A stretch of 49,633 nt of DNA, from the IMG/VR virus record IMGVR_UViG_3300023313_000009, positions 1 through 49,633 of that record; one strand, 5' to 3'. The notes beneath the pieces were generated by a model, which did no database searches, was not told where the DNA came from, and saw nothing but the letters and a program-made list of their open reading frames with translations. The position numbers were made by a program, and so were the translations under genes. This document shows, piece by piece, positions 1 through 33,255 of this stretch (within the stretch, counting starts at the first letter, position 1; every line of letters starts with the position of its first letter). The stretch is from a virus.

Positions 1-132
1 CTCGGGCATGAACTAAGACATTTAGCACAAGGTCAAAGATTAGGGCGTAATAAGTATAATAGTATGAGCATTGACGTATTGGAAAAAGACGCTGAACTAT
101 TCGAGGCGTATCTTTTAAAAAAGGGGTATTAA
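1..132 (+). CDS. C-terminal end of an HEXXH (zinc metallopeptidase-like) protein, partial
   Basis: An open frame runs from the first base to TAA at 130-132, giving 43 residues of a C-terminus whose start lies outside the window. It opens with LGHELRHLAQ, which contains HEXXH (HELRH), the zinc-binding helix of many metallopeptidases. About 25 residues later KDAELFEAYL supplies acidic residues, where IrrE/M78-like and related families carry a further ligand. The next gene starts one base after the stop, so they are probably co-transcribed. Function is inferred from the motif only. Four HEXXH proteins lie within the first 5.4 kb. Confidence 0.6.
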   Translation, partial: LGHELRHLAQGQRLGRNKYNSMSIDVLEKDAELFEAYLLKKGY

Positions 133-1854: not shown

Positions 1855-1880
1855 TTTTGCCTAGTATTCACTAGGCAAAA
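1855..1880. repeat. Perfect 26-bp palindrome between operons
   Basis: TTTTGCCTAGT (1855-1865) is mirrored by ACTAGGCAAAA (1870-1880) around ATTC. The position between the rightward genes ending at 1847 and the leftward operon ending at 2237 suggests a bidirectional terminator. Because the T tracts lie inside the stem rather than after it, an operator or replication site is equally possible. Confidence 0.5.
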
Positions 1881-1983
1881 ATCATGCCAATTCAACTGGC
1901 ATGGATTTGGATAGCAAGAACCATGCCATGCCAAGTACGTATGCAAAAGTCATGCCAATTCAAGCATGCAAAAATCATGCCAA
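1875..1983. repeat. Three GCAAAARTCATGCC direct repeats
   Basis: A 21-bp word occurs at 1875-1895 and 1943-1963 with one difference, and its first 16 bases recur at 1968-1983. The first copy is part of a CATGCCA/TGGCATG stem (1883-1889, 1897-1903); extra CATGCC words lie at 1922-1932. The rest of the gap 1984-2236 shows no supported gene. The layout resembles iterated protein-binding sites (operators, origin iterons or a packaging site), but no choice can be made. Confidence 0.55.
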
Positions 1984-2236
1984 AAAAAGGCCCGGGTACG
2001 GTTTTCAGGATTCGATTCTACGCAGGGAATATACCCCTACCTACATTTTAAAAACCCCCCAGCGCACTGCATCATAGTAACCGAAAGTAAATCCCCTCTA
2101 AAGCAATCCCAAATTTTAATTTAGTAAAATAACTCTGAGCACCGTGTCATAAATAAAACGAGTTATATGTATAGGTTCTCGGAGACTATCAGGGTATGTG
2201 ACTGAGAGGTTAGGTAAGCTAGGGGAGCCGCCCTCC

Positions 2237-2383: not shown

Positions 2384-2518
2384 TTAGAAGAATAGAGGGT
2401 AGAAGGCTGAGTTATACATATCAAAGGATTTTAGTCCAGTATATACCCCTTTATTATATCCAATAAAGTACATTATTGGATAGTGTACTTCACTAGGAAT
2501 CCTTAAATAGTAAATCAT
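2384..2518 (-). CDS. Micro-ORF family member, PLFF tail
   Basis: Forty-four codons from ATG at 2518, overlapping the upstream stop as ATGA. A nested in-frame ATG at 2524 inside the upstream TGG codon would add two residues (MV). It starts MIYYLRIPSE, is Tyr-rich throughout (10 aromatic residues) and ends AFYPLFF before TAAGGAG, where the stop forms part of the SD for the next member. Confidence 0.6.
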   Translation of the reverse strand: MIYYLRIPSEVHYPIMYFIGYNKGVYTGLKSFDMYNSAFYPLFF

Positions 2519-2667
2519 AACCATAGTACGAGTCCTTCGCTGTAGGGAAGCCTATATTTACAGTTGTTCATCTCTTCAGGTCTTAGGTGGGCGGTGGTTA
2601 TGTTCTGTATAAACCTAATATCATGAGGAAATCTACTCATAAGTAACAGGGAGTAATAGGGTTTCAT
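2515..2667 (-). CDS. Micro-ORF family member, VLWL tail
   Basis: Fifty codons from ATG at 2667 (overlapping the preceding TGA). The in-frame nested ATG at 2673 would give an MD extension. It starts MKPYYSLLLM and ends SEGLVLWL. The final codons CTATGGTTATGA contain both the nested ATG and the ATGA start of the next ORF, so coupling is direct. Function unknown. Confidence 0.6.
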   Translation of the reverse strand: MKPYYSLLLMSRFPHDIRFIQNITTAHLRPEEMNNCKYRLPYSEGLVLWL

Positions 2668-2792
2668 ATCCATAGTACGTAGTCGTTTATTGTATAGTTG
2701 TCAAACCTTGAGGAAAGTTCAAGACTATATACATGTAAAAACTCTAGGACATTACTCATGGTTAAAAATTTCCAATCATTACTTATGTACAT
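2664..2792 (-). CDS. Micro-ORF family member, VLWI tail
   Basis: Forty-two codons from ATG at 2792, two bases beyond the stop of the 78-codon gene. It starts MYISNDWKFL, ends NDYVLWI, and its last codons (GTACTATGGATATGA) carry the nested ATG of the next ORF in its frame. The tail motif and the coupling layout, rather than the body sequence, place it in the family. Confidence 0.6.
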   Translation of the reverse strand: MYISNDWKFLTMSNVLEFLHVYSLELSSRFDNYTINDYVLWI

Positions 2793-2794
2793 AT

Positions 2795-3031
2795 CTAATT
2801 ATCCCTTAGTTTGTTCTTCAAGTCAAGGATAAACTCCTCAGCCTCAGAACTGAATATAACCTCTCTGAGTACCCCACCTATACATTGACCTATCCTATTG
2901 TCGTTAAGGGTCTCTAAGGCGGCAATCTGAGCTTCTAAGAGCATCCTACGTAGGGAGTCCTCAGGGATACTATACCTCAAGGAGTATTCTTTTATAGTAG
3001 CCTCGATTGCTTCTTGGTCGTTTGTTTTCAT
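2795..3031 (-). CDS. Small acidic helical protein
   Basis: Seventy-eight codons from ATG at 3031, chosen because it overlaps the preceding TGA as ATGA; an in-frame GTG at 3037 inside the previous Trp codon would add MV. The sequence is almost all helix, with two amphipathic stretches (EDSLRRMLLEAQIAALETL and SSEAEEFILDLKNKL). It lacks the family tail. It may be a small regulator or adaptor; no family is recognised. Confidence 0.6.
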   Translation of the reverse strand: MKTNDQEAIEATIKEYSLRYSIPEDSLRRMLLEAQIAALETLNDNRIGQCIGGVLREVIFSSEAEEFILDLKNKLRDN

Positions 3032-3189
3032 AACCACAGTACCATGACATATTTATCATAAGTTTCCAGCATAGGGTATACATCTTCATATCCCAAATGA
3101 ATCTCCGTAGAGAAATAGTCGAGATCGTAAATATCTATCATATAAACTGCTTCATCTACATCCATAACACAGATACTCCTACGGAACAT
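3028..3189 (-). CDS. Micro-ORF family member, VMVLWL tail
   Basis: Fifty-three codons if begun at ATG 3189, which has an AAGGAG SD within the upstream ORF, or 45 codons from the in-frame ATG at 3165 nested in the upstream Trp codon. The core MDVDEAVYMIDIYDLDYF is acidic and Tyr-rich, and the end is YVMVLWL. The dual start illustrates how members are chained: SD and nested ATG are in the same frame. Confidence 0.6.
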   Translation of the reverse strand: MFRRSICVMDVDEAVYMIDIYDLDYFSTEIHLGYEDVYPMLETYDKYVMVLWL

Positions 3190-3299
3190 TGTAAAGACTC
3201 CTTACACGCGTAGTGCCAGTCTATCTTATAGAAGTGGCCCCAGTATAGCTCTTTGAATATTCCTTGTTCTAAGAGGACCGTTATTATTTTTCGATTCAT
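3156..3299 (-). CDS. Micro-ORF family member, VLWM tail
   Basis: Forty-seven codons from ATG at 3299, overlapping the TGA of the metallopeptidase-like gene upstream. It starts MNRKIITVLL, has Trp/Tyr/His in the middle (KELYWGHFYKIDWHY) and ends SVGVSVLWM. The last codons GTGTTATGGATGTAG contain the nested start of the next ORF. Confidence 0.6.
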   Translation of the reverse strand: MNRKIITVLLEQGIFKELYWGHFYKIDWHYACKESLQCSVGVSVLWM

Positions 3300-3715
3300 T
3301 TGAATACTTCCTCTAGCCAAGCTTGGTGCCACGCTTTATGTTGCCACGTTCTATAACTTTGATTGTAAGTAAGGTCGGGAAAGTAAGCCTGAAATATTTT
3401 CTCAGCCATTTTATCGACGTAAACCTCAGCCCTTAGTCCTGTCCTTCGGACTGCAAGCTTATGAGCTTTGGTCATTAGGTGAGGATATCCCATGGAATGA
3501 TATAACGGAAATATCCCCTCACGGGCGCAAATGATATGACACAGTTCATGAAATACATTGCACCACATATTAACAAGAGTGTCCCTTTCTATTATGACGC
3601 TCTCAGCGGCGATATGAGCCTCGCTAGAGTTACCGTAGGGTGTAAGTTGCATTGACACTCCAAAGTCCCTTAGAAAGGCTCTCATCTCCCTTAGACGACG
3701 CCTAGTTACTCTCAT
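3296..3715 (-). CDS. Zinc metallopeptidase-like protein (HELCH), no signal peptide
   Basis: One hundred thirty-nine codons from ATG at 3715, overlapping the end of the 181-residue gene. An Arg-rich N-terminal helix (MRVTRRRLREMRAFLRD) precedes strands and then VFHELCHIICAREG at 52-65, where HELCH (56-60) is an HEXXH zinc site. No signal peptide is visible, so it would act in the cytoplasm, unlike its two neighbours. A third ligand cannot be placed with confidence; candidates are His/Glu residues in the helix after residue 75. Substrate unknown. Confidence 0.65.
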   Translation of the reverse strand: MRVTRRRLREMRAFLRDFGVSMQLTPYGNSSEAHIAAESVIIERDTLVNMWCNVFHELCHIICAREGIFPLYHSMGYPHLMTKAHKLAVRRTGLRAEVYVDKMAEKIFQAYFPDLTYNQSYRTWQHKAWHQAWLEEVFK

Positions 3716-4247
3716 CTAACATCCCTGCTATAATTCCGTCGATATTACCTGTGAACATCTCAATTATGAGGGCTTCTCGGTGATTTTTATAGAAGTATGG
3801 GTCGCTGAACATTTCAGGGCCCATTAAAGAGATGTAAGTATTGTTGTACCTGAAGTTTCTATGATCGTAACCTAAAGCACAGTGAGCTAATTCATGGAAC
3901 ACTAACTCTTCTCTCTGGTACTTATTGTGCCTCTTGAACCTAGCCTTACTTATGAATATTTCAGTTCCACCGTCTCCTCTTGTCGCACACAACCCTTCGA
4001 GAGGTGTAGCACAGTTGCTTCTCTTGTTACAATAAAAGGAAGGTTCTTCAACTAAGTTTATGTTTATACTGGAAGTATCGACCTTCTTCTTGGTATGTTT
4101 ATAATACAGTGCTTCGAAGCTTTTCTTATATTTGTCGAATATAGGGTTGCTACGCTTGAATACGGTGTAAGTCTTATTCACAGGCAAGGCGGCGTTGATA
4201 GGGATTCCTATAGAAAGCACTGAGAATAATAGTATTAAGAATTTCAT
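3702..4247 (-). CDS. Exported zinc metallopeptidase-like protein (HELAH)
   Basis: One hundred eighty-one codons. Residues 1-20 (MKFLILLFSVLSIGIPINAA) form a classical signal peptide with an INA/A cleavage site. FHELAHCALGYDH (117-129) gives HEXXH plus a downstream Gly and His, close to the metzincin pattern but with one extra residue before the Gly. ISLMGPEM (139-146) could be a Met-turn. Three Cys at 73, 79 and 87 may form disulphides, fitting periplasmic location. It overlaps the genes on either side (TAATG upstream), within a block of three such enzymes. It could attack host envelope or periplasmic proteins; this is inference. Confidence 0.7.
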   Translation of the reverse strand: MKFLILLFSVLSIGIPINAALPVNKTYTVFKRSNPIFDKYKKSFEALYYKHTKKKVDTSSININLVEEPSFYCNKRSNCATPLEGLCATRGDGGTEIFISKARFKRHNKYQREELVFHELAHCALGYDHRNFRYNNTYISLMGPEMFSDPYFYKNHREALIIEMFTGNIDGIIAGMLDESN

Positions 4248-4384
4248 TAGTCGTTCTCCGTTTTAGATATTAAATAATACCATGTCTTTTTGAGTATAAC
4301 GCCAAATAGCACGATTGTCAAATAAGGCGGGATAAATATAGCTAAGAGTATAGAACTCATAACAGTAACAGCAAACTTTTCCAT
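4247..4384 (-). CDS. Single-span membrane protein
   Basis: Forty-five codons from ATG at 4384 with SD TAGGAG made by the upstream micro-ORF stop. Residues 5-30 (AVTVMSSILLAIFIPPYLT and on into IVLFGVIL) are hydrophobic with a Pro-Pro kink, so one long or two short membrane segments are possible. The end is polar (SKTEND). TAATG overlap couples it to the exported metallopeptidase, suggesting a linked role. Confidence 0.55.
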   Translation of the reverse strand: MEKFAVTVMSSILLAIFIPPYLTIVLFGVILKKTWYYLISKTEND

Positions 4385-4396
4385 AATTACAAGCTC

Positions 4397-4549
4397 CTAA
4401 AAGAATAGCACGTACATTTCAAAATGACATCTGGACATACATACCGTATTGATTATATCATAAGTTACTGTAACATCTGAAATCAGTATTATGTGGTAGA
4501 TTGGTGAGTCAGTATAAATATCTAAGGTATGTGCGTCTAATTTAATCAT
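4397..4549 (-). CDS. Micro-ORF family member, VLFF tail
   Basis: Fifty codons from ATG at 4549 to TAG at 4399. It starts MIKLDAHTLDIYTD, has an alternating hydrophobic core (HIILISDVTVTYDI) like two beta strands, and ends EMYVLFF. The stop is part of TAGGAG, the SD of the next membrane-protein gene. The start has no strong SD, and about 25 bp separate it from the 27-codon ORF upstream. Confidence 0.55.
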   Translation of the reverse strand: MIKLDAHTLDIYTDSPIYHIILISDVTVTYDIINTVCMSRCHFEMYVLFF

Positions 4550-4574
4550 TTCAAACTCGCGACACTATATCAAG

Positions 4575-4658
4575 CTAACAACGTAATGAAGTTAACCATA
4601 TACGTAGATAATAACACAGAAGCCGATTCATGTCAAATATAATGGTTATCATATCCAT
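4575..4658 (-). CDS. Very short ORF after the ILWI micro-ORF, doubtful
   Basis: Twenty-seven codons starting from the ATG nested in the previous ORF (ATGGATATG), reading MDMITIIFDMNRLLCYYLRIW and ending LRC. It has the nested-start arrangement but not the terminal motif, so it may be a truncated or decaying member. Evidence is positional only. Confidence 0.3.
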   Translation of the reverse strand: MDMITIIFDMNRLLCYYLRIWLTSLRC

Positions 4659-4897
4659 AATATATAAAGGCTGAGGATAGGAGGTCTAACGCTAAGTCCC
4701 CGTATGTACATTCGTTGAGGGTACTTAATACTGGTGTAGTTCAGAAAGGGGGACGAGGATGTGTGGGGATATAGGTCAACGGCCTTGGCCAGTATACCAC
4801 CGGGGAAGGATTGCTCGTCGGCTGTAGGGTTCCAATGTAACCATAGACGAGAGATGGAGAGGGAGGTTCGTATGTTATCAGGCTTACAGCTCACCAT
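4649..4897 (-). CDS. Micro-ORF family member (long form), ILWI tail
   Basis: Eighty-two codons from ATG at 4897, overlapping the end of the exported metallopeptidase gene. It begins MVSCKPDNIRTSLSISRLW, is Pro/Ser-rich in the middle, and ends PPILSLYILWI. The last codons (ATATTATGGATATGA) hold the nested ATG of the following ORF. It is longer than most members, so either the true start is internal or the family varies in length. Confidence 0.5.
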   Translation of the reverse strand: MVSCKPDNIRTSLSISRLWLHWNPTADEQSFPGGILAKAVDLYPHTSSSPFLNYTSIKYPQRMYIRGLSVRPPILSLYILWI

Positions 4898-5387
4898 GTG
4901 ACCTTCTAGTACTTTTTAGAATTCCTAATCCTTGCCAGTAGAACTTCTTATACTTAGAGTAACACTCATCGTAGAACATTCGGTGTCCGGCTTGCATTAT
5001 TGTCGTGGGACAGTTGTAAGGGGATTTCCAATTTCTAGACCCTAGAGTGCCGAAGGTGTGTTCTAAGTTTAATACACAATGTCCGAATTCGTGAAATATG
5101 AGGAGTTCTTTACCCTCTTCAGATAAATGGTCCCATAGCTCAAAATGTATCTCAACTGCGTTATTACGGTTTCTGTGACAGTATCCCAAGATATCGTTCC
5201 GTCCTAAAGGTATCCCCATATACACCCTTTGGTTCTGTAAATCTACTCCGAATTCAGAGTACACTCTTTCGAAGGTTCTCATATATTTCCAAAAAATTTT
5301 CGAACTAGCGTGGTATCTTCTCTGTGGATGGTTTCTGACTGTGGCGACACATAATAATATTACCACACATGCAAGCATCTTTCTCAT
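4884..5387 (-). CDS. Exported zinc metallopeptidase-like protein (HEFGH)
   Basis: One hundred sixty-seven codons from ATG at 5387, chosen for its AGGAGG SD; the nested in-frame ATG at 5405 would add MDLGGK. MRKMLACVVILLCVATV is a signal peptide, or lipoprotein-like around Cys. LLIFHEFGHCVLNLEHT carries HEXXH (99-103 by this start) and a His seven residues later. PTTIMQAGHRMF further on could be the Met-turn. It shares layout with the 181-residue enzyme: signal peptide, about 100 residues, HEXXHC, C-terminal Met-containing turn. I take them as diverged paralogues. Probable periplasmic protease; target unknown. Confidence 0.7.
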   Translation of the reverse strand: MRKMLACVVILLCVATVRNHPQRRYHASSKIFWKYMRTFERVYSEFGVDLQNQRVYMGIPLGRNDILGYCHRNRNNAVEIHFELWDHLSEEGKELLIFHEFGHCVLNLEHTFGTLGSRNWKSPYNCPTTIMQAGHRMFYDECYSKYKKFYWQGLGILKSTRRSHGEL

Positions 5388-5395
5388 TTTTCCTC

Positions 5396-5563
5396 CTAAA
5401 TCCATAATACTGTTTGTTTGAGTCTATATACTGAAGTTGTTACTCCCTTTAAATCAGTAAGTCCGTGATAGTATCCTATGATACGGGTACTATCTGACAA
5501 CTTCAAATCCCTTTTGGAGTTTATTACTAAAAGTGTTATACACATTCTTACACCTAAATCCAT
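5396..5563 (-). CDS. Micro-ORF family member, TVLWI tail
   Basis: Fifty-five codons from the nested ATG at 5563 (MDLGVRMCIT), or 49 from the second ATG at 5545 after AGGTG. It contains LVINSKRDLKLSDS and ends RLKQTVLWI. The last codons plus stop, TTATGGATTTAGGAGG, contain both a nested ATG and an SD for the exported metallopeptidase gene, the clearest dual coupling in the window. The same 14-base word minus the final G occurs at the end of the previous member. Confidence 0.6.
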   Translation of the reverse strand: MDLGVRMCITLLVINSKRDLKLSDSTRIIGYYHGLTDLKGVTTSVYRLKQTVLWI

Positions 5564-5712
5564 AATATAACCATTTTGAATGGGAGTATTTGAGTGACAC
5601 AATCTTTCATATATCTTCTATATCTATATTGACTCGAAGGGAGCATACTATCTAGATTAATAAAGGAGAGTTCATCAAATTCAGTAATTAATGTATAATG
5701 AAGGTTTCTCAT
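5554..5712 (-). CDS. Micro-ORF family member, MVILWI tail
   Basis: Fifty-two codons from ATG at 5712, overlapping the TAA of the regulator gene (TAATG). It starts MRNLHYTLITEFDEL, has a basic aromatic patch (SQYRYRRYMKD) and ends PFKMVILWI. Its final codons TTATGGATTTAGGTG include the nested ATG of the next member. Confidence 0.6.
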   Translation of the reverse strand: MRNLHYTLITEFDELSFINLDSMLPSSQYRYRRYMKDCVTQILPFKMVILWI

Positions 5713-6485
5713 TATTTACCCTTTAATTTCAAGTAGTTATACACTGTACGTTCCCCGATTCCATATTTCTCAGCTAACTCTTTAACGCTCATACCACTGA
5801 TGTGGTAATCATTTGATATCTCGTTATCGTTCTTAGCCTTCATTAACTGGCCGCTTTTCTTCAGCTTACGTATGGCTCTCTTAAATATCTTGGAACAGAC
5901 CTGACGGGTTATTCCTACCTCTAAGGCTATGTCATTCCAATCCTTAAAGTAGAGGGTGCGCAACTCTACGATTTTACGTTGCTGCTCATTAAGTATGTTC
6001 CACGGGATATCATCTCGGGTGTATTTGGTCTTCCAAGTCGAGACTTCGGCCTCCTCGTAAACCATCTCTTCGAAGTATTCCTGAGTCCTGTCAGGAGAAG
6101 GGGCAGTCTGAGGGAGGTCTTTATCTAGAAAATCTGACATAGTTCCACACATGCTGTCACAGCTATTTTTAAACGGACAAGTATTACATTGAGTGGCTTT
6201 GAGTAACCATACTTCCTTCCCCTTGTATAATCCGACTTCTAAGCCGTCTAAGAGGCTCGCTGAGGCTCTTAACTCGGGGTACATAGGTATAGGTCTACCC
6301 AAGCATTCTGAGCCGCAGAAATCGGCCTTAGAGCATCTACGGGCCAGTAGGTTCTCATTGAAGTCTGTCATACTTCGTTTGGCTAACTCATAATACAACC
6401 CATCACTGAGGTCTGCCGTATGATATAGTGGGAACTTACTACATATGGGGGCTTGTTTTTTAAGGAATTCTAATTTATTCGTCAA
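5712..6485 (-). CDS. Sigma/HTH-like transcription regulator with Cys cluster
   Basis: Two hundred fifty-seven codons from TTG at 6485 behind TAGGAGAGG. The N-terminal half has Cys at 15, 51, 57, 61 and a tight CNTCPFKNSCDSMC cluster (100, 103, 109, 113), suggesting bound zinc or an iron-sulphur cluster. Residues about 165-210 (LNEQQRKIVELRTLYF, then WNDIALEVGITRQVCSKIFKRAIRKLKK in two helices) resemble sigma70 region 4. A second HTH lies at 232-255 (SVKELAEKYGIGERTVYNYLK). It is the second gene from the promoter at 6829. It may control phage transcription, possibly late genes; it is not a full sigma factor because no region 2 is evident. Confidence 0.65.
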   Translation of the reverse strand: MTNKLEFLKKQAPICSKFPLYHTADLSDGLYYELAKRSMTDFNENLLARRCSKADFCGSECLGRPIPMYPELRASASLLDGLEVGLYKGKEVWLLKATQCNTCPFKNSCDSMCGTMSDFLDKDLPQTAPSPDRTQEYFEEMVYEEAEVSTWKTKYTRDDIPWNILNEQQRKIVELRTLYFKDWNDIALEVGITRQVCSKIFKRAIRKLKKSGQLMKAKNDNEISNDYHISGMSVKELAEKYGIGERTVYNYLKLKGK

Positions 6486-6493
6486 ATCCTCTC

Positions 6494-6820
6494 CTAGAAT
6501 ATTAATACTGAGTAGTAGTTTCTACTCTCTAACATTGATTGGCGGGTTGTTTTTATTAATGTTGCATAACGTAAGTCATTGTAATTATAGGGTTGTGAGG
6601 GGTAACGCCCTCTTACTATCCTCCTATACGGGAGGCCATAGAAGGCATATTCTTCAAACGACTCAGTACATAAGAATTCGATTTCCTTGATAAATTCGAA
6701 TCTAACACCCATGTATGTAGACAATCTACGATGTTTTCCACATTCCATACACTTATCATGTGTGGAATTGACATGTAAATTAAGGAAACATAACACTCTG
6801 AATAATATTTTAGTGAACAT
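6494..6820 (-). CDS. CxxCG zinc-finger-like protein with VLIF micro-ORF tail
   Basis: One hundred eight codons from ATG at 6820, first gene of the leftward operon. The start KILFRVLCFLNLHVN then HDKCMECGKHRR matches the common small phage pattern of an LCxLxxH strand and a CxxCGK knuckle. The rest is aromatic-rich and ends RNYYSVLIF, the micro-ORF tail, directly before TAGGAG, the SD of the regulator gene. It looks like a fusion of a zinc-knuckle domain and a family member. The promoter predicts a start site only about two bases upstream, so translation may be leaderless or begin internally. Confidence 0.5.
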   Translation of the reverse strand: MFTKILFRVLCFLNLHVNSTHDKCMECGKHRRLSTYMGVRFEFIKEIEFLCTESFEEYAFYGLPYRRIVRGRYPSQPYNYNDLRYATLIKTTRQSMLESRNYYSVLIF

Positions 6821-7627: not shown

Positions 7628-8218
7628 ATGAAAAACCTTCCATTTCAACAAGATAAGGATGAAGCCGTTCGCGAGAATCTCAAAGAACTTCAAGAAATCC
7701 AAGAAAACAAAAGTCTTGACAAAAAGGTAAAGCAGATCAAGATTCACCACAAACTCAAGGATATGTCCGAAGGTAAGTGGACGATAATCGAAGATGCTCT
7801 ACTAGAAATTGAAGTGGAATGTCGAACTGAAGTTCTCCTCAAAAAGATAGAAAAAATACCTCCCCTAACTAAAAGGGTCGAGTCAATGAAAGATAAACTA
7901 TCAGAGAAATTTAAAGAGGAATCAGAAGTTCTTAATACCTTGTTATCCGCGATACCTGATATTAACAACGTCAGGAGATGGGTAAAGAAGAAGGAATGGA
8001 TAGAAGAAATCGATCGAAGGATGCGGGATACCGAGCTTTTCAGTTCAGAGAATCGCCACCAAATGATTAGAGCAATATTCAATTCAGGAATCAAGGGAAG
8101 CGCAAAACACGCTGAGATGTATTTGAAAATGAGTGGAGATTTAGGAAAACCTAATGAGAAAGAAGACCCTAAAGAAAGTATCTTCTCACAAATGCAATCA
8201 GCCATGAAGAAGAAGTAA
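7628..8218 (+). CDS. terS: Probable small terminase subunit
   Basis: One hundred ninety-six codons from ATG at 7628, which directly follows the preceding TAA; an upstream in-frame start at 7604 lies inside that gene and has no SD. The protein is highly charged and helical, with a coiled-coil-like centre (LLKKIEKIPPLTKRVESMKDKL) and a Lys tail. The assignment rests on position immediately before the large terminase and on size and helix content usual for TerS; there is no diagnostic HTH motif. Confidence 0.55.
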   Translation: MKNLPFQQDKDEAVRENLKELQEIQENKSLDKKVKQIKIHHKLKDMSEGKWTIIEDALLEIEVECRTEVLLKKIEKIPPLTKRVESMKDKLSEKFKEESEVLNTLLSAIPDINNVRRWVKKKEWIEEIDRRMRDTELFSSENRHQMIRAIFNSGIKGSAKHAEMYLKMSGDLGKPNEKEDPKESIFSQMQSAMKKK

Positions 8219-8346
8219 TGATTCCATTATGGGTTAATTTTGAAGATGAAGTGATATCTGACTCAAAGTATGATACCCCGAAAGCATTACCATATCACCG
8301 ATATTTAAAACCTCTCAGGAGTTTTAATTTCGTTTTATTTTTCTAG
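8218..8346 (+). CDS. Micro-ORF family member, VLFF tail
   Basis: Forty-two codons, ATG overlapping the TerS stop (TAATG). It starts MIPLWVNFEDEV and ends RSFNFVLFF. This is the first rightward member, sitting between the two terminase genes. The stop TAG is followed by AACACGTCAAGGAGGGGG, so here the SD is separate from the stop. Confidence 0.6.
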   Translation: MIPLWVNFEDEVISDSKYDTPKALPYHRYLKPLRSFNFVLFF

Positions 8347-8366: not shown

Positions 8367-9938
8367 GTGAGTATAGAATTCGAAACAGACGACACTGGTC
8401 ATCGACTCAGAACCGAAGACCTTAACATTATGGGTCTCGCTAGAGTTCTATATGATAATAAAATACGTTGGAAAAACGGTAAGATTATCGGAGAACATAG
8501 AGACGACGATGGAAATAGAAGTTTCATAGGATTACATGAAGGACAAGAGAAGGTTATTAGTTCTCCTGCAAGATTCAAAGTAGTCGCATGTGGCCGCCGC
8601 TGGGGAAAAACTGGATGCGCTGCGCTAGTAGCTTTAGCTACAATTCTACAACCAAACAGAAGGGTCTGGGTCGTTGGACCTGAGTACTCACATGTAGAGA
8701 AAGTATTTCAAGAATTATATTACATATTAGTAGTTCAGTTAAAACTTGTCGGAAAGAGTGTACCAAACTCAGCAGCTCGTAAATCTAAAGGTGACTACTA
8801 CATAGAAACCCCTTGGGGTTCAATCATAGAAGGTAAGTCTTCAGGAAACCCCGACTCAATGGCAGGGGAAGCGTTAGACTTGGTTATCTTCGATGAAGCA
8901 GGACTAGAACGTAACCTGTCAACCATATGGAGACAGATGCTTAGACCCACGCTAGGGGATAAGTCAGGCTCGGCAATGTTTATATCAACACCACGGGGTA
9001 AGAATGACTTCTATAAGTTATTCAAAGTCGGTGAACTCGGTAGAAGACAACATGAAGGTTATGTACAAATAAAGAATGAATCCGAGGATTTTAGAGATTG
9101 GGCTAGTTGGTCAATGCCAAGCTACACCAACCCCTTTATTCCTCGTTCAGAATATGATGACGCAAAAAAAGAAGCTCTAATGGCTGGAACGTATTTACTA
9201 TTCCAACAGGAATATGATGCAGACTTCGAGTCAGTGAGCGACGCGGCTTTTCCCGGATTCAGAGCAACAAAGCCCGACAAGGAAAACCCAGATATAAGAA
9301 CTCCGTATCACGCTCAAGACTATAAATATAGCCCTGAATTTGGCCCGTGGTTTGCCTCGTGTGACTACAACATTGCAAGGCCAGCATCTACAATATATGC
9401 ACAAGTGGACAAACAAGGAAATGTAATGATTTTCGATGAATTGTTCAAACCTAATACTACAGCTTATATGCAAGCTGAGTACATAAAAGAAAAATGTAAA
9501 GAATTAGGAGTACCGTATAGAGATGTTATAGGAGACGTATCAGGCTCGTTTGCAACAGCCAAAGGCATGAATGAATTCAATCAGTTTGAAACAGTTCTAG
9601 GACATTCCCCCGTAGGAATCAGACAAGGACGAGAAACTGGAAACCACTTGATTCACGAATGGTTATCATATCCAATAATAAGTAAAGACGGAAGTGTTAA
9701 GATGGACGAGTTCGGAAATCCCGAAACTTACCCTAAACTTTTTGTGGCTTCCCACTGTATAGAAACTATACACGCATTAGAAACAGCTAAAAAGAAAACA
9801 GGCAAAGACGGTTCAATTAAACAAGATTATTCTGAGTTCGTCTCAGGCCATGAGGGACTAATTGATGCAGTGCGTTATTTATTAGTTTTCTTATTTAACG
9901 AGAGACAAACAGTAACAAGTTCAAAAGGCTTGTACTAG
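8367..9938 (+). CDS. terL: Terminase large subunit (ATPase and nuclease)
   Basis: Five hundred twenty-three codons from GTG at 8367 behind AAGGAGGGGG. The ATPase domain has Walker A GRRWGKT (76-82), Walker B DLVIFDEA (171-178) and the coupling motif FISTPRG (205-211). The RNase H-like nuclease domain shows acidic residues in SCDYN (D333), VIGDVSG (D390) and GLIDAVRY (D500). Full length for the family. It cuts concatemers and pumps DNA into the prohead through the portal. Certain as a family assignment. Confidence 0.95.
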   Translation: MSIEFETDDTGHRLRTEDLNIMGLARVLYDNKIRWKNGKIIGEHRDDDGNRSFIGLHEGQEKVISSPARFKVVACGRRWGKTGCAALVALATILQPNRRVWVVGPEYSHVEKVFQELYYILVVQLKLVGKSVPNSAARKSKGDYYIETPWGSIIEGKSSGNPDSMAGEALDLVIFDEAGLERNLSTIWRQMLRPTLGDKSGSAMFISTPRGKNDFYKLFKVGELGRRQHEGYVQIKNESEDFRDWASWSMPSYTNPFIPRSEYDDAKKEALMAGTYLLFQQEYDADFESVSDAAFPGFRATKPDKENPDIRTPYHAQDYKYSPEFGPWFASCDYNIARPASTIYAQVDKQGNVMIFDELFKPNTTAYMQAEYIKEKCKELGVPYRDVIGDVSGSFATAKGMNEFNQFETVLGHSPVGIRQGRETGNHLIHEWLSYPIISKDGSVKMDEFGNPETYPKLFVASHCIETIHALETAKKKTGKDGSIKQDYSEFVSGHEGLIDAVRYLLVFLFNERQTVTSSKGLY

Positions 9939-11553: not shown

Positions 11554-11703
11554 ATGGATGAAGAAAGAGAATTGGTCATAGTATATCAATCGAATATGAA
11601 AGAATATATAAAATATAGAATAAAGAGAAAAACTGAAATACGAAGAAGTCGAATAAGTTCGACGGAACCTATGATAACGAGTCTTGGAGGGAAAGATGAG
11701 TAG
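11554..11703 (+). CDS. Small basic protein overlapping the portal start
   Basis: Forty-nine codons from ATG at 11554 (SD TTGGAGGG). Arg/Lys-rich centre (KYRIKRKTEIRRSRI). Its end encodes SLGGKDE, whose DNA includes the GGAGGG SD of the portal gene, and its TAG lies inside the portal reading frame, so translation is coupled. Function unknown; it could be a leader peptide setting portal levels. Confidence 0.5.
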   Translation: MDEERELVIVYQSNMKEYIKYRIKRKTEIRRSRISSTEPMITSLGGKDE

Positions 11704-13660
11704 TATATTTACAATAGTCAAGACCACCGTTAAAGAAATCTTAGGAAATGAGAACGGAAGTTTCAACTTTGGACTTAGCCAAAATGGAAGTGTCGCAGCT
11801 ACATTTGCTTTAAATTCAAATTTTTATTCATCTCTAGTATACCGACGATGGGTAACTCGCATCGCCTTAGATTTCTATACAGGAAGACAGGATAACTACG
11901 TATGGATGGATTTGCAGAAATCCTTTAGAGACCCTAGTAAGCAACAAATAATTCCATACAACATAACCCAAGAGATTATAGACGAGACTAGCATATTATA
12001 CAGAGAAGAGCCTAATTATCTAGTTAAAGATAAAGAAGGAAATGTTTTAGAAGAAGAGACTAAACTTTGGAAACGTATAAGGAAAACTGGCCGTTATCAT
12101 AATTTATGCCAACAACTAGACTCCATGACCAAGTTACTAGGAACAGTCCTAGTTAAAGTTAGCTTTGTTGACCCCATGACCGGAGATTTGGTTAATAAAA
12201 ACGAACCGGGAGTCGTACAATTCGACTTGGTATACGGAGGTTATTTCAATGCAACATGGTCTAGTTCCCCATATTATATTACCGAACTTGATTTCGAGTT
12301 TGCAGACGGAATAAATCAATCACAAAATAATTACATGATGGGTGCCGAAATTAGGCCCTCTAATACATTAACTGTTGCAACTGTCCCTACAGATACTACT
12401 AAGATTTCAGAACGTAGAGTAGACAGTTTGAATAAGTTAAGTAAGATATCAAAAATAACATGGTCCATTAAAGATCATAAGGTCGAAGATGAGGACGGAA
12501 ATACATTCGAGGGAGAAAACCCCTACGGAGTAATTCCGGCAGTACCATTCTTCAATCAAGACCCCGGCAATAGATTCTTTCTACCGATAAATGAGCCTTT
12601 GTTATATGCTAACCATGCAATTAACATGAGACTCAGCGACTTGAACCATATAGCGAAATATCAGTCGTTTGGTCAAGCCGTAGTAAAAGGAATTGAACGG
12701 CCCGTAAATAATAGATTCGGAAGGCCCGTAGATGATTATAACTCTGCTGGTGGTTCTAGAACTTTTGGTTTAGGACAAGGAGCTAACGTCGGGCCTACAG
12801 GCTTAGATAGAAACTTCCACAGTCCCTTTGATTATTATAGTGACGGAAATGCTACAGCTAATAAGAACGGCTTTAGTGTTGGCCCTGACACAATAGTAAG
12901 TGTAGGCGAGACAGGAGACTTTAAGTTTGTCTCTCCAAATGCAAACATTGGTGGGTTAACTGAGACAATATACACAATGATGGATATGCTCAGAATTAAC
13001 CATGGACTTAGACCAAAACATAAAGGTGGAACTTCTGGTTCTGGATACAACGCTACTTTAGAGAAGTTAGGAGTTGTAGAGAAGAATAAGAAACGTTCAC
13101 TATTCTTTAAAGAAAGAGAACAACAACTATTCGAGATAGTCAAAAAGCTCTGGAATGTTCATCATGCTGAATCAGAAGAAAAGACCTTTTGTGAAGACTG
13201 TGAATTGGACATTTATTACGTTGAACCTGAATTTGCAGTTGACCCTCAAACCAAGATGGCAGCTCTTAAACAGGAAATGGAAATCATAGCTACTGGAGAC
13301 AGACAGGCTATTAGAAAGATTAAACCTCACCTAGACGATGCAGCACTTGACGAACTATTGAAATCTTATCATAAAGATATGATGGAACAGATGAAGCGAG
13401 ACGTTGAGATCGAGAACTATAAGTTCAATAATCTAGATGAAGTACAAGCCGAGATAGAAGTGCAGGATTCCGAGCTAGGAATCAGTACTAGTTCAGGGGG
13501 TGGAAGCTCTGACACAACTTCAGACACTCCAGCAGGGGCCAAAACAAACCCTGCCAAACACTCTAAAGAATCTTCTATCCAACCGGGTAAAAACGGAGAC
13601 ACAAGAAAAACAGACGCAGCAAAAAGAAAACAAGCAGACAAAGAAGCTAAGAAAAAATAA
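11696..13660 (+). CDS. Portal protein
   Basis: Six hundred fifty-four codons from ATG at 11696 (SD GGAGGG, spacing 5). The central region has the SPP1-like portal layout: an N-terminal wing with WKRIRKTGRYHNLCQQLDS, strands, then the stem helix region NEPLLYANHAINMRLSDLNHIAKYQS, and a long C-terminal helical section (PQTKMAALKQEMEIIATGD). The last 60 residues are a disordered Ser/Gly/Lys tail. It forms the ring through which DNA enters. It precedes scaffold and capsid genes as expected. Confidence 0.85.
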   Translation: MSSIFTIVKTTVKEILGNENGSFNFGLSQNGSVAATFALNSNFYSSLVYRRWVTRIALDFYTGRQDNYVWMDLQKSFRDPSKQQIIPYNITQEIIDETSILYREEPNYLVKDKEGNVLEEETKLWKRIRKTGRYHNLCQQLDSMTKLLGTVLVKVSFVDPMTGDLVNKNEPGVVQFDLVYGGYFNATWSSSPYYITELDFEFADGINQSQNNYMMGAEIRPSNTLTVATVPTDTTKISERRVDSLNKLSKISKITWSIKDHKVEDEDGNTFEGENPYGVIPAVPFFNQDPGNRFFLPINEPLLYANHAINMRLSDLNHIAKYQSFGQAVVKGIERPVNNRFGRPVDDYNSAGGSRTFGLGQGANVGPTGLDRNFHSPFDYYSDGNATANKNGFSVGPDTIVSVGETGDFKFVSPNANIGGLTETIYTMMDMLRINHGLRPKHKGGTSGSGYNATLEKLGVVEKNKKRSLFFKEREQQLFEIVKKLWNVHHAESEEKTFCEDCELDIYYVEPEFAVDPQTKMAALKQEMEIIATGDRQAIRKIKPHLDDAALDELLKSYHKDMMEQMKRDVEIENYKFNNLDEVQAEIEVQDSELGISTSSGGGSSDTTSDTPAGAKTNPAKHSKESSIQPGKNGDTRKTDAAKRKQADKEAKKK

Positions 13661-14982: not shown

Positions 14983-16644
14983 ATGGCAAGTGTAACTTTA
15001 CAAGAAGCTGCCAAACTGTCGAACAACGAAGTAGTCGAAGGGATTGTTGAGGATATTATATCTGAAGACAATTGGTTTCAGTACCTACCATTTGTTCAAC
15101 TGAACGGATTAGCTCACACTTTTCAAAGAGAAAAGACTTTAGCAAACGTTGATTTCGCTGGAATCGGTCAAGACCTTACAGGGGATGAGTACCGTGGCGG
15201 TGCTACATTCGATAATGTAAACGTCGGACTAGCAGCAATTATGGGTGAGATTCTTATCCCAGATCAAATCGACGATCAACTAAGCGATATAAATGACCAA
15301 CTTCAAGTGCAAATCTCTTCGAAGTCTAAAGCATTTGCTCGTTTTTTCATGAACGCAATCATCAACTACGGTTCGAATGGTTTTGCTCTTTCACAATCTA
15401 ACAACGGCCCTATCGGTGCTGACGGATTTGAAAACGCCCCTCTTATGAAGGGTATGAAAGCAATTCTTGATGAAGAAGTAGGAAATGCTGATGATGTTAA
15501 CCATCCATTTTATCAGTCAGGACAAGCAACTCAAACTATCGAGTTGATTGAAGACGACGCAGCTTCGGCTCGTGTTGGATTACCCGGACGTACATTTGGA
15601 TTAGAAGACCTTGACTCAATTCTTGATGCAGTTACTAAGGGACCAGAATTCCTTTTAATGAACAAAAAGATGAGACGAGTTCTTAGAACACTTTTACGTA
15701 ACACTGGTGGCGGTACTGACGCTGCTCAAATTATGAGACAAGACCTTGGTTCAGGGAAGCCTATGCTTCACTACCAAGAAATTCCAGTATTTATTTCAGA
15801 CTTTGTTTCTGACGTAGAACCTGTACATCAAGTACATTCTACAGCGGTAACTATCTCGTCTATAAATATCGGGGCAAGTACCTTGACTCTTTCTGCTGAT
15901 ATTAGTGCAGAAATCACCGCAGCTTTACCTGTTGCTGGTGCAACTTACCTTGTAGCTCGTTCAGGAGTTGCTGGTAAATTTAAGAAAGTCGCTCTTAAGA
16001 TTACAGGTATTGCTGGTGCAGTACTTACTTATGACGCTGCTTTCCAACTCAAGAACGACGAAACTAACCGTCTTCAAGGTTCCGATCTTACAGGTCTCGA
16101 CAACGCTCAAGGGCTTGTTGGTAGAGCTGCTACAGTTTGGGAAAGAGTTGATGGAACTTCTATCTACTCCGGTAAATTCGGAGAGCAAGAAGGTTTCTGT
16201 GCCTTTACCATGCGTCAAAACGCTGGCATCCAAGTGAAATATGTTGGACCAGTTCGTGAAAGAGACGAAAGTCAGTATAGGATAAGCGCATAACATTTTG
16301 TCCTATTAAAATTCCGTGAATTGCTGGAAAACCCTAAAACTTAGTTAACTACAACATAACCTGTAAAGGTAAGTGTGAACGTTTGAAAATAACTAAGATA
16401 ATACAATGGGTAATCAGCATCCAAGCCTCCTAGAAATAGGTGGAAGGTTCAGAGACTAGAGTATGGAGTCTAAACGAGTAAAGTCGTAGACGGTAAAACT
16501 CCACGAGCGCGGAACTCCTGTAAAAGGGATGATGATATAGTCCGTCCTTATGTGAAAGCATTCGAGATTGGGATAATTAAAAAACCTAATAAAATCAAGT
16601 ACTTAGGAAATGGTACGTTTCAGCTCAAACTTATTCCAGACTAG
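14983..16644 (+). CDS. Major capsid protein, interrupted by a group I intron (join 14983-16283, 16608-16644)
   Basis: The SD AAGGAG and ATG 14983 open a reading frame that in the unspliced RNA ends at TAA 16291-16293 with 436 residues (QYRISA). Removing the intron 16284-16607 keeps frame and gives 445 residues ending QYRINGTFQLKLIPD. The strand-like FQLKLIPD end is what HK97-fold capsid proteins usually have. Residues 1-280 fit the fold (long N-arm, MGEILIPDQIDDQLSDIND helix region, GRTFGLEDLDSI). Residues about 285-345 are an extra beta-rich insertion (TISSINIGASTLTLSAD). It forms the icosahedral shell. Confidence 0.85.
16284..16607 (+). ncRNA. Self-splicing group I intron in the capsid gene
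   Basis: Group I core words are present in order: TGCTGGAAAACCC (P3/P4 side), GTAATCAGCATCCAAGCC (Q/R side), GGTTCAGAGACTAGA with GACTA 16454-16458 of P7, and GATATAGTCC with TAGTC 16538-16542. The 5' exon TAGGAT (16278-16283) pairs with GTCCTA (16300-16305), giving the obligatory U-G at the 5' splice site. The 3' exon AAATG (16608-16612) pairs with CATTT (16294-16298) as P10, and the intron ends in G 16607. There is a GAAA-capped P9-like hairpin at 16550-16561. There is no endonuclease ORF. Confidence 0.85.
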
Positions 16645-20715: not shown

Positions 20716-23322
20716 ATGGCGATTAACATCAACCAAGGCCCTGAAAGGGTCGAAGTAACTCCTAAACCGATTGGAACGGTTTTTGTTCCCGGTGCTAGTA
20801 CAGCTCGAACTGCAACGCTTATAGCTACCAGTAAAGCCTCAGCACCTCTAAATACTCCAATTTCAGTATTCAGCATGAGCGAATTTGAGGAGTCATTTGG
20901 AACAGAAGCAGACATGGGAGAAGCATACTTATCATCAAAGGGTTATTTCGATAACGCTGGTGAGGGAGCCGAACTTATAGTCATAGCAGTTTCACCTTCT
21001 GGAGTATCAGGGTCAATCCTTGAAGCCGCAGAAATCCAAGCCCCTAGAGCCATTATAGGTAGCCTAGGTAAACTATTAGACGACGGAGAAATCCTTACAG
21101 GGGCGACCCTTACAAGTTATGATAGTGCTAAAGGTGAAATGCTTTTAAATACTGGTGCTGCAACAGGTACTTATTCAAAAGCCAAGATTGGAGATTTCAT
21201 TAGAGACGCAGAAGGTAGACTATACCAGATTAGCGGATTTAAAGGAACTTCAACAGTTCTAATCGATTCAGGTTTAGATCAAGAGTTAAGCAAATCCTCT
21301 AAAGGACTTTCAGCAGACGGAGCTAGTATTACCATAGTTCGTCTTTTTGATGCTGGAGCTTATAGCGGTAAAATGAGTGTTCAAGAAGGTGTTACATACG
21401 GTTCAGGAGTTACGACTACTGTATCTGGTAGTACTTTAACCTTAGCAGGGTTTGACGCTAATTTGAATGACGTCAGAAAGGGTGATATTATAGTAGATTC
21501 TCTTAACGAAGAATTTATCATAACTTCAGTAATAGACGGCGATAATATTGAAGTTGATAGAGACGGCTTAACTGCTGGAGTTATTGACATTAAAAGAGGA
21601 ACTAAAGTTAAGATTATAGAGTCTGGTAGTGATGCTGGTTCTGCTAAACTTACTTTGAGTGTTTCTCCATATGAAGCTGCTGATTCTAAAGTAAAGTTTG
21701 CATTAGCTGACAGTGCTCTAAACTCTCCCGAAGGTTCACTCGCAGGAGACTTCTTAGAATTCTCTGACGGGACTAAGGCTGAGATTACTGCAAATACTAT
21801 AGTAGCAGAGTCAACAATCATAACGGCAGCAATGGCCGGGACAATTTCATATGTAGCTTCTACAGGAATAGTAACTGCTACAGGTGAGACAATCCAAACT
21901 GACGGAGCTAAAGCAGGAGACGTTTTAATCGACGCCTCAGGTAAAGAATATATAATTCACGAAGTTATCTCAGAAACAGATATTCGCATTAATAAGAATA
22001 TCGCCTCACCTAGTTCATTAGCCGGAGCGAAAGTTCATAAAGGTGCTATGGAACTCACAGTAGGTTTAGACTTAAGTGCTAAAATTACAGGTGAAACTGG
22101 AGCAGATACCTCAGGGGTTATTAAGTACAAAGCTAATTCACTTTCAGTTGACGCAGATACCAATATGAGTTCAGATGATTATTTCATTGTAGAACCTTCA
22201 TATGAGTCTCAGGATTACATTGGAAGCGAAGCAGACTTTAGCGGCCTTAGAGCGTTAGACGCTTTAGACACTGTAAATCTAATAGCTATTCCGGGTATAT
22301 ATGACCCTGCGGTACAAGGCGCATTAATCGACTATTGTTCGGTTACTAGAAGCGATTGTATGGCATTAGTAAGCGTTCCTGAATTTGTTACTTCAGCGTC
22401 TAAGGATGTTTTAGTAGCTTCTAACTTGGTTATTGCAAGTGTTCAAGAATCTCTCACTGGTAGTATTGTAAGCTTCTCAGCTTCTCCAGACCTCTCAGGG
22501 GTTTCAACTTACGACCTGTTAAAGATCGGGGTAAAGACCTTTGTAGTGAAATCAGTTAGCGACCAAGACGACCAAATAGTTGTCTTTGAAACTACGGGAA
22601 TTCCTACAGTAGGGGCTGTATCAGTACAGAGTCCTTCAGCTATTAGTTGGAAAGATTCAATTGTTAATAAACCCACTACTAAAGTAAGTTGGTATTTTAA
22701 CCACGTAATAGTTAGTAATTCTGACGGTGGAAGTTCAGTAGTAGACCCTTCATGTCATGCTGCTGGAGTTATGGCTAGGATTGATTCAAATATTGCTGAA
22801 GGTGGAGTATCCCACGCACCAGCAGGAATCAGGCTTGCCCAACTCGCAGGAACCACAGGCTTACAACTACAGCTTTCTGAAAGACTTGACGGGGGCCCAC
22901 TAAGGTTGGCATTCATCAATAGGATTACAAGTTCAACTGGTAACGGTAGATACATCTTTGGTGGATATACTGGTGCTGGAGATTCAGCTACGTCTGATGA
23001 ACAGTTAATTCAGGTTATCAGAAGTGTACTATTTCTTAAGTCATCTTTAGAGTCTGGTTTGGTTGGATTCCTTTGGGAAAATAACTCTCCAGTAAATAGA
23101 TCGAATATCAGCAATGCTATTCTAGCGTTCTTAAGAACAAATGCTTACCTTTTCCCAGCAGGATTGCCAGAAGACCAGCAATTCAAAGTGGAAAGTATCA
23201 CCCCAGACACACAGGCACTAGCTCAAGGGTTAGTTAAAGTAAGAATTCAGGTCAGGTTTAATACCGCTATCAGATTTATCGATATAGACCTCGAATTTCC
23301 ACTTCCTGTTTCTCAAGCATAA
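20716..23322 (+). CDS. Tail sheath protein with inserted beta modules
   Basis: Eight hundred sixty-eight codons, SD AGGAGTAA. The sheath core is split: an N-terminal part (GTVFVPGASTARTATLIATS, then EGAELIVIAVSPSG), LIAIPGIYDPAVQGALIDYC at about 528-547, and a C-terminal part (SNISNAILAFLRTNAYLF, DTQALAQGLVKVRIQVRF) typical of contractile sheath subunits that interlock. Between them are about four inserted modules with GDFIRDAEGRLYQI, GDIIVDSLNEEFII and GDVLIDASGKEYII cores. At nearly 870 residues it is longer than most sheaths; the insertions should decorate the tail surface. Confidence 0.85.
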   Translation: MAININQGPERVEVTPKPIGTVFVPGASTARTATLIATSKASAPLNTPISVFSMSEFEESFGTEADMGEAYLSSKGYFDNAGEGAELIVIAVSPSGVSGSILEAAEIQAPRAIIGSLGKLLDDGEILTGATLTSYDSAKGEMLLNTGAATGTYSKAKIGDFIRDAEGRLYQISGFKGTSTVLIDSGLDQELSKSSKGLSADGASITIVRLFDAGAYSGKMSVQEGVTYGSGVTTTVSGSTLTLAGFDANLNDVRKGDIIVDSLNEEFIITSVIDGDNIEVDRDGLTAGVIDIKRGTKVKIIESGSDAGSAKLTLSVSPYEAADSKVKFALADSALNSPEGSLAGDFLEFSDGTKAEITANTIVAESTIITAAMAGTISYVASTGIVTATGETIQTDGAKAGDVLIDASGKEYIIHEVISETDIRINKNIASPSSLAGAKVHKGAMELTVGLDLSAKITGETGADTSGVIKYKANSLSVDADTNMSSDDYFIVEPSYESQDYIGSEADFSGLRALDALDTVNLIAIPGIYDPAVQGALIDYCSVTRSDCMALVSVPEFVTSASKDVLVASNLVIASVQESLTGSIVSFSASPDLSGVSTYDLLKIGVKTFVVKSVSDQDDQIVVFETTGIPTVGAVSVQSPSAISWKDSIVNKPTTKVSWYFNHVIVSNSDGGSSVVDPSCHAAGVMARIDSNIAEGGVSHAPAGIRLAQLAGTTGLQLQLSERLDGGPLRLAFINRITSSTGNGRYIFGGYTGAGDSATSDEQLIQVIRSVLFLKSSLESGLVGFLWENNSPVNRSNISNAILAFLRTNAYLFPAGLPEDQQFKVESITPDTQALAQGLVKVRIQVRFNTAIRFIDIDLEFPLPVSQA

Positions 23323-29440: not shown

Positions 29441-29769
29441 TGTCAAACTTTAACGAAGATTCAAGATATAGAGAAACAACTGTCACTCAGATAGATAATG
29501 GAGATGAACTGACTGAGTATGTTATATTAAGAAAACCTTTAGAAGTTCCTTTAACTGATAGAGATCAGTATGTAACTATTGATGAAGGGAACCAGTTTAG
29601 ACCTGATTTATTATCACAACAGGTTTATGATACTACAAGATATGGATGGGCATTGATGGAAGTTAATAACATCCGTTCGTTTATAGAGTTACAGTTCGGG
29701 ATTAGAATAAGAGTCCCTCCTATAGATGAGATAACGTCGAGGATTGGTGAAAGTAATTCAGTAATATAA
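29440..29769 (+). CDS. Baseplate wedge protein, gp53-like
   Basis: One hundred nine codons overlapping the previous stop (TAATG). DQYVTIDEGNQFRPDLLSQQ and VYDTTRYGWALMEVNNI, then FGIRIRVPPIDEI, follow the gp53-like pattern: short beta, the RPDxxS segment, WxIxxxNNI and a final hydrophobic strand entering IPxx. Acts at the baseplate wedge. Confidence 0.65.
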   Translation: MSNFNEDSRYRETTVTQIDNGDELTEYVILRKPLEVPLTDRDQYVTIDEGNQFRPDLLSQQVYDTTRYGWALMEVNNIRSFIELQFGIRIRVPPIDEITSRIGESNSVI

Positions 29770-29903
29770 TGGAGTATTTACATAGAGATATATACGGACG
29801 TACACTCTTATTTAAAAATACATATATAAGACCTCCTTATAAATACATGGTTAGGTACAACTTAACATACTTTGTATATAAGGAACACGTCTTATTCTTC
29901 TAG
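29769..29903 (+). CDS. Micro-ORF family member, VLFF tail
   Basis: Forty-four codons, ATG overlapping the previous TAA (TAATG). It starts MEYLHRDIYGRTLLF, contains 8 Tyr and ends YKEHVLFF. TAG and GGA directly after it provide a weak SD for the next gene, which starts at GTG 29912. Confidence 0.6.
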   Translation: MEYLHRDIYGRTLLFKNTYIRPPYKYMVRYNLTYFVYKEHVLFF

Positions 29904-32263: not shown

Positions 32264-32421
32264 TGGATATATATGTAAATTATTACTGGATAAATTCATG
32301 GAGTTCTAAGAACGTTCCGGGAAATTTTGAAAATAGTACATGTAGAATTCCTTCAGGGTGTCTACTTAGGTATTATTCATACTTGCCTGAAGTTGAGGGA
32401 TGTGTAGTATTATATTTTTAA
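32263..32421 (+). CDS. Micro-ORF family member, VVLYF tail
   Basis: Fifty-two codons; ATG overlaps the spike stop (TAATG). It starts MDIYVNYYWIN, has a Cys/Ser middle and ends EGCVVLYF before TAAGGAG, where the stop is the SD for the next gene. It sits between spike and gp25-like genes. Confidence 0.6.
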   Translation: MDIYVNYYWINSWSSKNVPGNFENSTCRIPSGCLLRYYSYLPEVEGCVVLYF

Positions 32422-32431
32422 GGAGCCGTTT

Positions 32432-32704
32432 ATGGCTATGAGTGGAAAACGAACTGTTCAGAGATTTAGAGAAAAACTCTCCCGAAGGTTTAATATTAAT
32501 TTAGGAGACGTTCCAGAGTTGGAACTACTCTTTGAATCTCTTATCGAGGAAATACAACAGGAAATGGAAGCCTCTAAGGTTAATAGTCCATCCCAAGGGT
32601 ATACCGTAACTATACCCGACCCTAATAACCTCGGCCAAGATATTACATATGATATAGATGGAACCTCAACTGACGGCGACATTAATAAAGGTAATTTCAG
32701 ATAA
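32432..32704 (+). CDS. Small baseplate-region hypothetical protein
   Basis: Ninety codons behind TAAGGAG. A basic helix (KRTVQRFREKLSRRFNINLG), an acidic helix (ELELLFESLIEEIQQEM) and a terminal beta-like region with YTVTIPDPNNLGQDIT. No family recognised. Placement next to gp25-like gene suggests a baseplate part. Confidence 0.5.
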   Translation: MAMSGKRTVQRFREKLSRRFNINLGDVPELELLFESLIEEIQQEMEASKVNSPSQGYTVTIPDPNNLGQDITYDIDGTSTDGDINKGNFR

Positions 32705-33253: not shown

Positions 33254-33255
33254 TC

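Follow-up and report, generated by a model that had tools for sequence, protein, structure and literature searches.

The capsid targeting sequence of phage T4 is N-terminal and is removed by the prohead protease. It is the only feature shared by the internal proteins IPI-III and Alt, a diverse set whose bodies are counter-defence proteins (PMC3012670). A comparable arrangement, a short shared peptide on diverse small phage proteins, appears to be present in the IMG/VR record IMGVR_UViG_3300023313_000009, a 49.6-kb contig of a contractile-tailed phage analysed at its full length (positions 1 to 49,633; the window), and in its relative G001 (IMGVR_UViG_3300011261_000157, 68.6 kb). Here, the peptide forms a tail at the C-terminus, comprises four residues, is carried by 21 to 67 proteins and varies between relatives; packaging is hypothetical. 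The original prediction described the tails of the window as selected at both the protein and the DNA level, as a translation-coupling cassette. The dual selection and the contribution of the tail codons to the start of the next gene were substantiated; the view that the tail is a coupling cassette in essence was not. The tails probably serve for recognition, as a C-terminal tag specific to each lineage. Because the genes follow one another closely in head-to-tail order, the tag codons would also have been taken into use for starting the downstream gene. The protein tag is primary and the coupling is layered on top.

Other described systems resemble parts of this arrangement. Termination–reinitiation overlaps (−4 ATGA, −1 TAATG, −8) also bring stop and start codons of co-directed genes to overlap or adjoin, and coupling is predicted from the same geometry here. 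The window differs in its repeated −10 overlaps and in a start signal that lies inside the codons of a conserved peptide. Overlaps of phase 1 outnumber those of phase 2 (−7, −10, −13) several-fold (PMC10666635). Nonpolar C-terminal degrons (Tsp/Prc, FtsH, ssrA-like tags) share the short hydrophobic C-terminus, whereas here the tag is gene-encoded on a dedicated set of proteins, lineage-specific and strict in its terminal residue. Encapsulin cargo-loading peptides are likewise short, hydrophobic and C-terminal, and they serve for the docking of unrelated proteins, but the tails are found on dozens of microproteins, not on a few enzymes, and no encapsulin system was identified. A phage with up to 67 small proteins sharing a four-residue ending was not described in the collections and literature searched, and no paper on shared C-terminal tags of phage microproteins surfaced. 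The novelty is the tagged microprotein set; the coupling itself is of the known termination–reinitiation kind.

A scan of open frames outside the large genes of the window gave 23 hits. Two antisense hits (1266−, 32697−) were discarded and 21 tails were kept (Table 1), 11 of a Trp type and 10 without Trp (six FF, one YF, two LF and one IF). The consensus at the chain end is [VI]-L-[FWYLI]-[FIL]. Neither LWI nor LFF tails occur on the small genes of G001, whose tails contain neither Trp nor a nested ATG; 67 small open reading frames (ORFs) end with [LIV]-x-[VI]-F. Phe is at position −1 in 67/67, followed upstream by Val (64) or Ile (3) at −2 and Leu (49), Ile (11) or Val (7) at −4. The tag of the whole gene set differs between the two related phages. 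Tail genes are located in arrays at both ends of G001 and in gaps between structural genes, and equivalent gaps are used in both phages: between two large baseplate genes, before 29912 and before 32876 (window coordinates). The G001 tails comprise 49 distinct DNA 12-mers for 15 peptide endings, with TTT or TTC for Phe and all six Leu codons. The strict amino acid ending despite 49 DNA versions reveals a constraint at the protein level. The commonest last dipeptide accounted for 56/105 in G001 and 2/41 in T4 (1–50 kb), and segments of T4 and Mx1 and other loci, taken as phage controls, had no shared C-terminal ending. The set of 67 can include a few spurious members, and some overlap other ORFs (e.g., 24863, 25535 and 33240). 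The search expression for tails was picked after the sequences were seen; the tests on the next gene are independent of this choice.

All 11 small genes of the window ending with Leu/Met-Trp-X have an ATG or GTG nested across the pre-Trp codon and the Trp codon, and the downstream ORF overlaps by 10 nt. The nested ATGs predicted at 2673, 2524, 3165, 4658, 5405, 5563, 37843, 37980 and 38248 and the GTG at 38126 are all present and in frame; GTG 3037, the eleventh, had been overlooked. ORFs from the 11 nested starts have 46, 52, 80, 45, 27, 173, 55, 48, 51, 43 and 48 codons. At least 40 codons are reached by 10/11; when in-frame '..A TG.' sites within large genes were taken as starts for comparison, this held for 0/53 in the window and 1/51 in G001. 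Eight of the 11 downstream ORFs end with the same kind of tail. The nested-start pattern is far beyond chance. Chance or a gene-caller artefact was rejected on the basis of the internal-site controls and of other phages.

The nested start is not always required. Four of the 11 genes (2515, 2664, 3028 and 4649) end with TGA and also offer an ordinary in-frame ATGA start, which makes the nested codon dispensable. At junction 5405, ATG 5387 behind AGGAGG, opening a signal-peptide-like MRKMLACVVILLC, is the likelier start. A sequence said to combine a nested ATG with a stop that is part of a Shine–Dalgarno (SD) sequence near 5396–5405, TTATGGATTTAGGAGG, was found once in the record, at 5392–5407 on the minus strand. 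The alternative start at junction 5563 is an ATG behind TTAGGTG. At five junctions (3165, 37843, 37980, 38126 and 38248), the only alternative to the nested start is a distant internal codon.

The residue type follows the junction type. The next frame overlaps (10 nt) at 11/11 Trp tails and at 0/10 non-Trp tails; in nine of the latter it begins past the stop, and none follows 2237. The exact probability of this association is 1/352716 (~3e-6) for 11 versus 10 tails and 1.3e-5 with eight non-Trp tails. All 10 non-overlapping tails close with Phe, but 10/11 Trp tails close with Ile, Leu or Met. The nested start thus seems to have shaped the Trp tail, as a variant form of a [VI]-L-x-F tag. For Phe-type tails, the stop had been proposed to be part of the SD sequence, and a purine-rich, SD-like run-on was present in 8/9 non-Trp tails with a following gene. 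The exception is the tail gene ending at 8346, with AAGGAGG farther downstream. NTA accounts for 53% of Leu codons genome-wide, for 9/10 in Trp tails and for 7/7 in tails without Trp. Selection of the nested ATG through the Leu codon was rejected, because NTA is equally favoured where no ATG results. A promoter function of TATTAT/TACTAT in the tails was also rejected; sigma-70-like sites were not enriched (21 vs. 19.1 expected).

In G001, the codons of the tag follow the next start by another device. The stop is directly joined by an ATG in 36/67 tail genes, with TAATG in use. GTG at −2 was found in 27/36 genes whose stop is overlapped or directly followed by an ATG and in 8/31 others (p 8e-5). 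The −3 codon has G as its third base in 31/36 and 2/31, respectively (p 1.4e-11). This includes synonymous choices: Ala at −3 is GCG in 11/11 with an immediate ATG and in 1/10 otherwise, and Val is GTG in 10/11 and 1/9. The Ala/Val effect was reached by 0/100,000 permutations. The tests of GTG, the −3 codon and synonymous codons are mutually non-independent. The combination xxG-GTG yields GGTG five bases upstream of TTTTAATG, the next ATG. GGTG is complementary to CACC of the anti-SD region and is a predicted SD-like element. Tag and DNA device thus differ between the phages, and the purpose is the same. The dependence of codon choice on the next ATG in G001 is independent support for selection at both levels.

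These codon patterns also bear on an origin of the tails from recent DNA duplication or recombination joints, with an unselected shuffling of cassettes at junction repeats. The adjacent paralogous pairs in G001 and the repetitive junction sequences speak for it. The explanation is very improbable, as it conflicts with the synonymous diversity of tails under strict amino acid conservation, with a codon choice that depends on the neighbour and with the fact that the window has tails of two DNA types, one with and one without Trp.

A pure translation-coupling cassette, a sequence kept to place a start codon and an SD sequence with the amino acids as a by-product, would account for in-frame nested starts in 11/11 cases, long ORFs in 10/11 and the tie between G001 codons and the next ATG. 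It has little probability in view of tails that have no gene to start. Nothing follows the tail at window 2237. The tails of G001 60218 and 60006 are kept although the next gene is convergent and a terminator-like hairpin follows, respectively. Hydrophobic, Phe-ending tails are retained where start and SD sequence lie past the stop, and 49 DNA versions serve 15 peptide tails. G001 has the same gene class without Trp and nested ATG; the two relatives thus have different DNA devices and the same type of hydrophobic C-terminus. The NTA bias shared by non-Trp tails also argues against a cassette. A Trp tail without a following gene, an observation that the original prediction had named as evidence against itself, is probably present at 4649. 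The ORF from 4658 has 27 amino acids and no tail, and a promoter-like TTGACA-17-TATTAT (4636–4608, minus strand) runs through it, so that probably no gene is located downstream of this tail. The promoter-like sequence is near-consensus and extended, with TG, and lies directly behind the ILWI tail.

For the favoured recognition tag, we infer a single reader of the ending in each lineage, a partner common to the set and of phage or host origin. The hydrophobic motif, [VI]-L-[FWYLI]-[FIL] in the window and [LIV]-x-[VI]-F in G001, is presented by many Tyr-rich proteins of ~50 amino acids with divergent bodies. The reader could be a protease, or offer a docking groove or a packaging site, and the variable Tyr-rich bodies may have individual functions. 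Head-to-tail packing would have led to the recruitment of tag codons for the next start. At overlapping junctions of the window, a Trp codon after NTA creates the nested ATG and the 10-nt overlap, with termination–reinitiation as the probable mode. At non-overlapping junctions, the stop leads into an SD sequence. In G001, xxG-GTG provides GGTG ahead of the next start.

The tails are uniformly nonpolar, and their hydrophobic positions alternate at −2, −4 and −6. The nonpolar character could indicate a degradation signal that makes the proteins short-lived substrates of Tsp/Prc, FtsH or a ClpXP-like enzyme. Proteases favouring nonpolar C-termini exist; for Tsp, this preference is mentioned with reference to earlier work (Silber 1992, cited in PMC9382460). 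A degradation signal is nevertheless unlikely: Phe in 67/67 at −1 and Val in 64/67 at −2 in G001 are stricter than a reader of general hydrophobicity needs, and a need for degradation restricted to small Tyr-rich proteins has no evident reason.

The tail ORFs have a median length of 55 and 50.5 amino acids in the two phages. Tyr makes up 9.9% and 10.0% of their residues, and 3.2% and 3.1% of those of large ORFs. The tail ORFs of both phages are poor in Ala and Gln, and those of G001 are rich in Trp and His as well. Some tail ORFs are clear paralogues (E down to 1e-12), with adjacent pairs in G001 (33578/33734 and 57112/57262). A strand-like motif near the N-terminus, [YHF]x[VIL][DSE][ILMVFY], occurs in 16/67 G001 proteins (4.3 expected, 0/500 shuffles) and 4/18 window proteins (1.3 expected, 14/500 shuffles). 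A shared N-terminal sequence of the T4 type was not found; the N-termini had a weak positional signal and this loosely placed motif. Profile searches with Pfam and PHROG gave no significant match for 10 window proteins and, for 22 G001 proteins, none in Pfam and one weak PHROG match (E 0.004). A PDB profile search gave nothing significant.

The alternation of hydrophobic residues, the enriched N-terminal motif and the clear paralogues are in line with a C-terminal beta-strand of one small fold, kept for folding in a paralogous family and read by no outside partner. This explanation is doubtful, as the bodies diverge beyond recognition in length and sequence and retain the exact chain end, the whole set changed together between the phages and no fold is supported. 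Still, the tail might be the structural last strand of such a fold and not a tag, and this is one of several points that weigh against the recognition tag. No tag-binding partner was found. Homology is detectable for few pairs: iterative profiles without the tails did not link the remaining bodies above shuffled controls. AlphaFold2 models had low confidence (pLDDT 42 and 57), which made the fold search uninformative. Informative genomes with tails are two, the window and G001, and the tail ORFs were called mechanically and are known here from sequence alone.

The structural genes of G001 are syntenic with the window and share 56% (portal), 70% (major capsid protein, MCP) and 57% (sheath) identity. 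The only close kin retrieved by searches with terminase, portal, MCP, baseplate and DNA patterns were G001, G002 (16 kb) and G003 (4 kb). None of 18 contigs with a doubled Trp-junction DNA pattern carries such tails. The sheath and portal of the window had 0 matches in 50,697 phage records, and no named host or isolate is close. A host search found none; MCP matches in genomes were remote, and portal matches were absent. G001 encodes a class I ribonucleotide reductase (L020 215–2970, minus strand), with a beta subunit whose nearest match is in Myxococcus phage Mx1 (56% identity), which may give a weak hint to the host group.

Several features accompany the tail genes. Small HExxH metallopeptidase-like proteins are encoded among or beside them in both phages (PhageMetallopep, SprT-like and M78-like, all under Pfam cut-offs). 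A signal peptide seems to be present in two window proteins. A sigma-70 region 4/helix-turn-helix protein (window 5712–6485, minus strand), with 29% identity in G001, adjoins two tail genes in both phages. The tail frame 32704–32868 opens with ATAAAC right at the stop of the preceding gene, which might represent an AUA start, an error or decay. Between two gene blocks (1880–1985, minus strand), repeated CATGCCAATTC/GCATG hairpins with T-runs are terminator-like.

Table 1. Tail genes and further features of the window, and one gene of G001 (L020).
Feature	Position	Strand	Remarks
Tail ORF	2237–2374	−	VLFF end; no gene after
Tail ORF	2384–2524	−	PLFF end; start nested in preceding tail (2524) or ATGA at 2518; own stop TAAGGAG = SD of 2374
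Tail ORF	2515–2673	−	VLWL end (CTA TGG TTA TGA)
Tail ORF	2664–2792	−	VLWI end (CTA TGG ATA TGA)
80-aa gene without tail	2795–3037	−	start GTG 3037 nested in preceding Trp tail, or ATGA 3031
Tail ORF	3028–3165	−	VLWL end; start nested ATG 3165
Tail ORF	3156–3299	−	VLWM end (TTA TGG ATG TAG)
Tail ORF	4397–4549	−	VLFF end; TAGGAG = SD of 4384
Tail ORF	4649–4897	−	ILWI end; then promoter-like 4636–4608; gene from nested ATG 4658 improbable
Tail ORF	5396–5563	−	VLWI end; start nested ATG 5563 or internal ATG behind TTAGGTG
Tail ORF	5554–5712	−	ILWI end
108-aa ORF	6494–6820	−	VLIF end; less certain member
Tail ORF	8218–8346	+	VLFF end; upstream of terminase
Tail ORF	29769–29903	+	VLFF end; between structural genes
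Tail ORF	32263–32421	+	VLYF end; TAAGGAG = SD
Tail frame	32704–32868	+	ILFF end; no ATG/GTG/TTG near 5' end
Tail ORF	33253–33396	+	VLLF end
Tail ORF	37694–37852	+	ILWI end
Tail ORF	37843–37989	+	VLWL end; start nested ATG
Tail ORF	37980–38135	+	VMWI end; start nested ATG
Tail ORF	38126–38257	+	CLWF end; start nested GTG
Tail ORF	38248–38394	+	LLLF end; start nested ATG
HExxH metallopeptidase-like	3296–3715	−
HExxH metallopeptidase-like	3702–4247	−
HExxH metallopeptidase-like	4884–5405	−
HExxH metallopeptidase-like	1–132	+	partial
HExxH metallopeptidase-like	L020 8242–8529	−
Terminase	8367–9938		role partly read from gene order and homology
Portal	11684–13660		role partly read from gene order and homology
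Capsid	14983–16293		role partly read from gene order and homology
Sheath	20716–23322		role partly read from gene order and homology

A more specific proposal is put forward tentatively. The tail genes may encode dozens of rapidly evolving, Tyr-rich microproteins, an arsenal that docks by a lineage-specific C-terminal tag on one partner, be it the virion, a phage compartment or a protease, with the start signal evolved independently in the tag codons, as a nested ATG or as an in-tag GGTG. The tag is a handle on phage ORFans that cannot be annotated otherwise, and one partner would explain dozens of genes. Here, one sequence is under two codes, and the near-complete synonymous switch makes the balance between protein and translation signal measurable.

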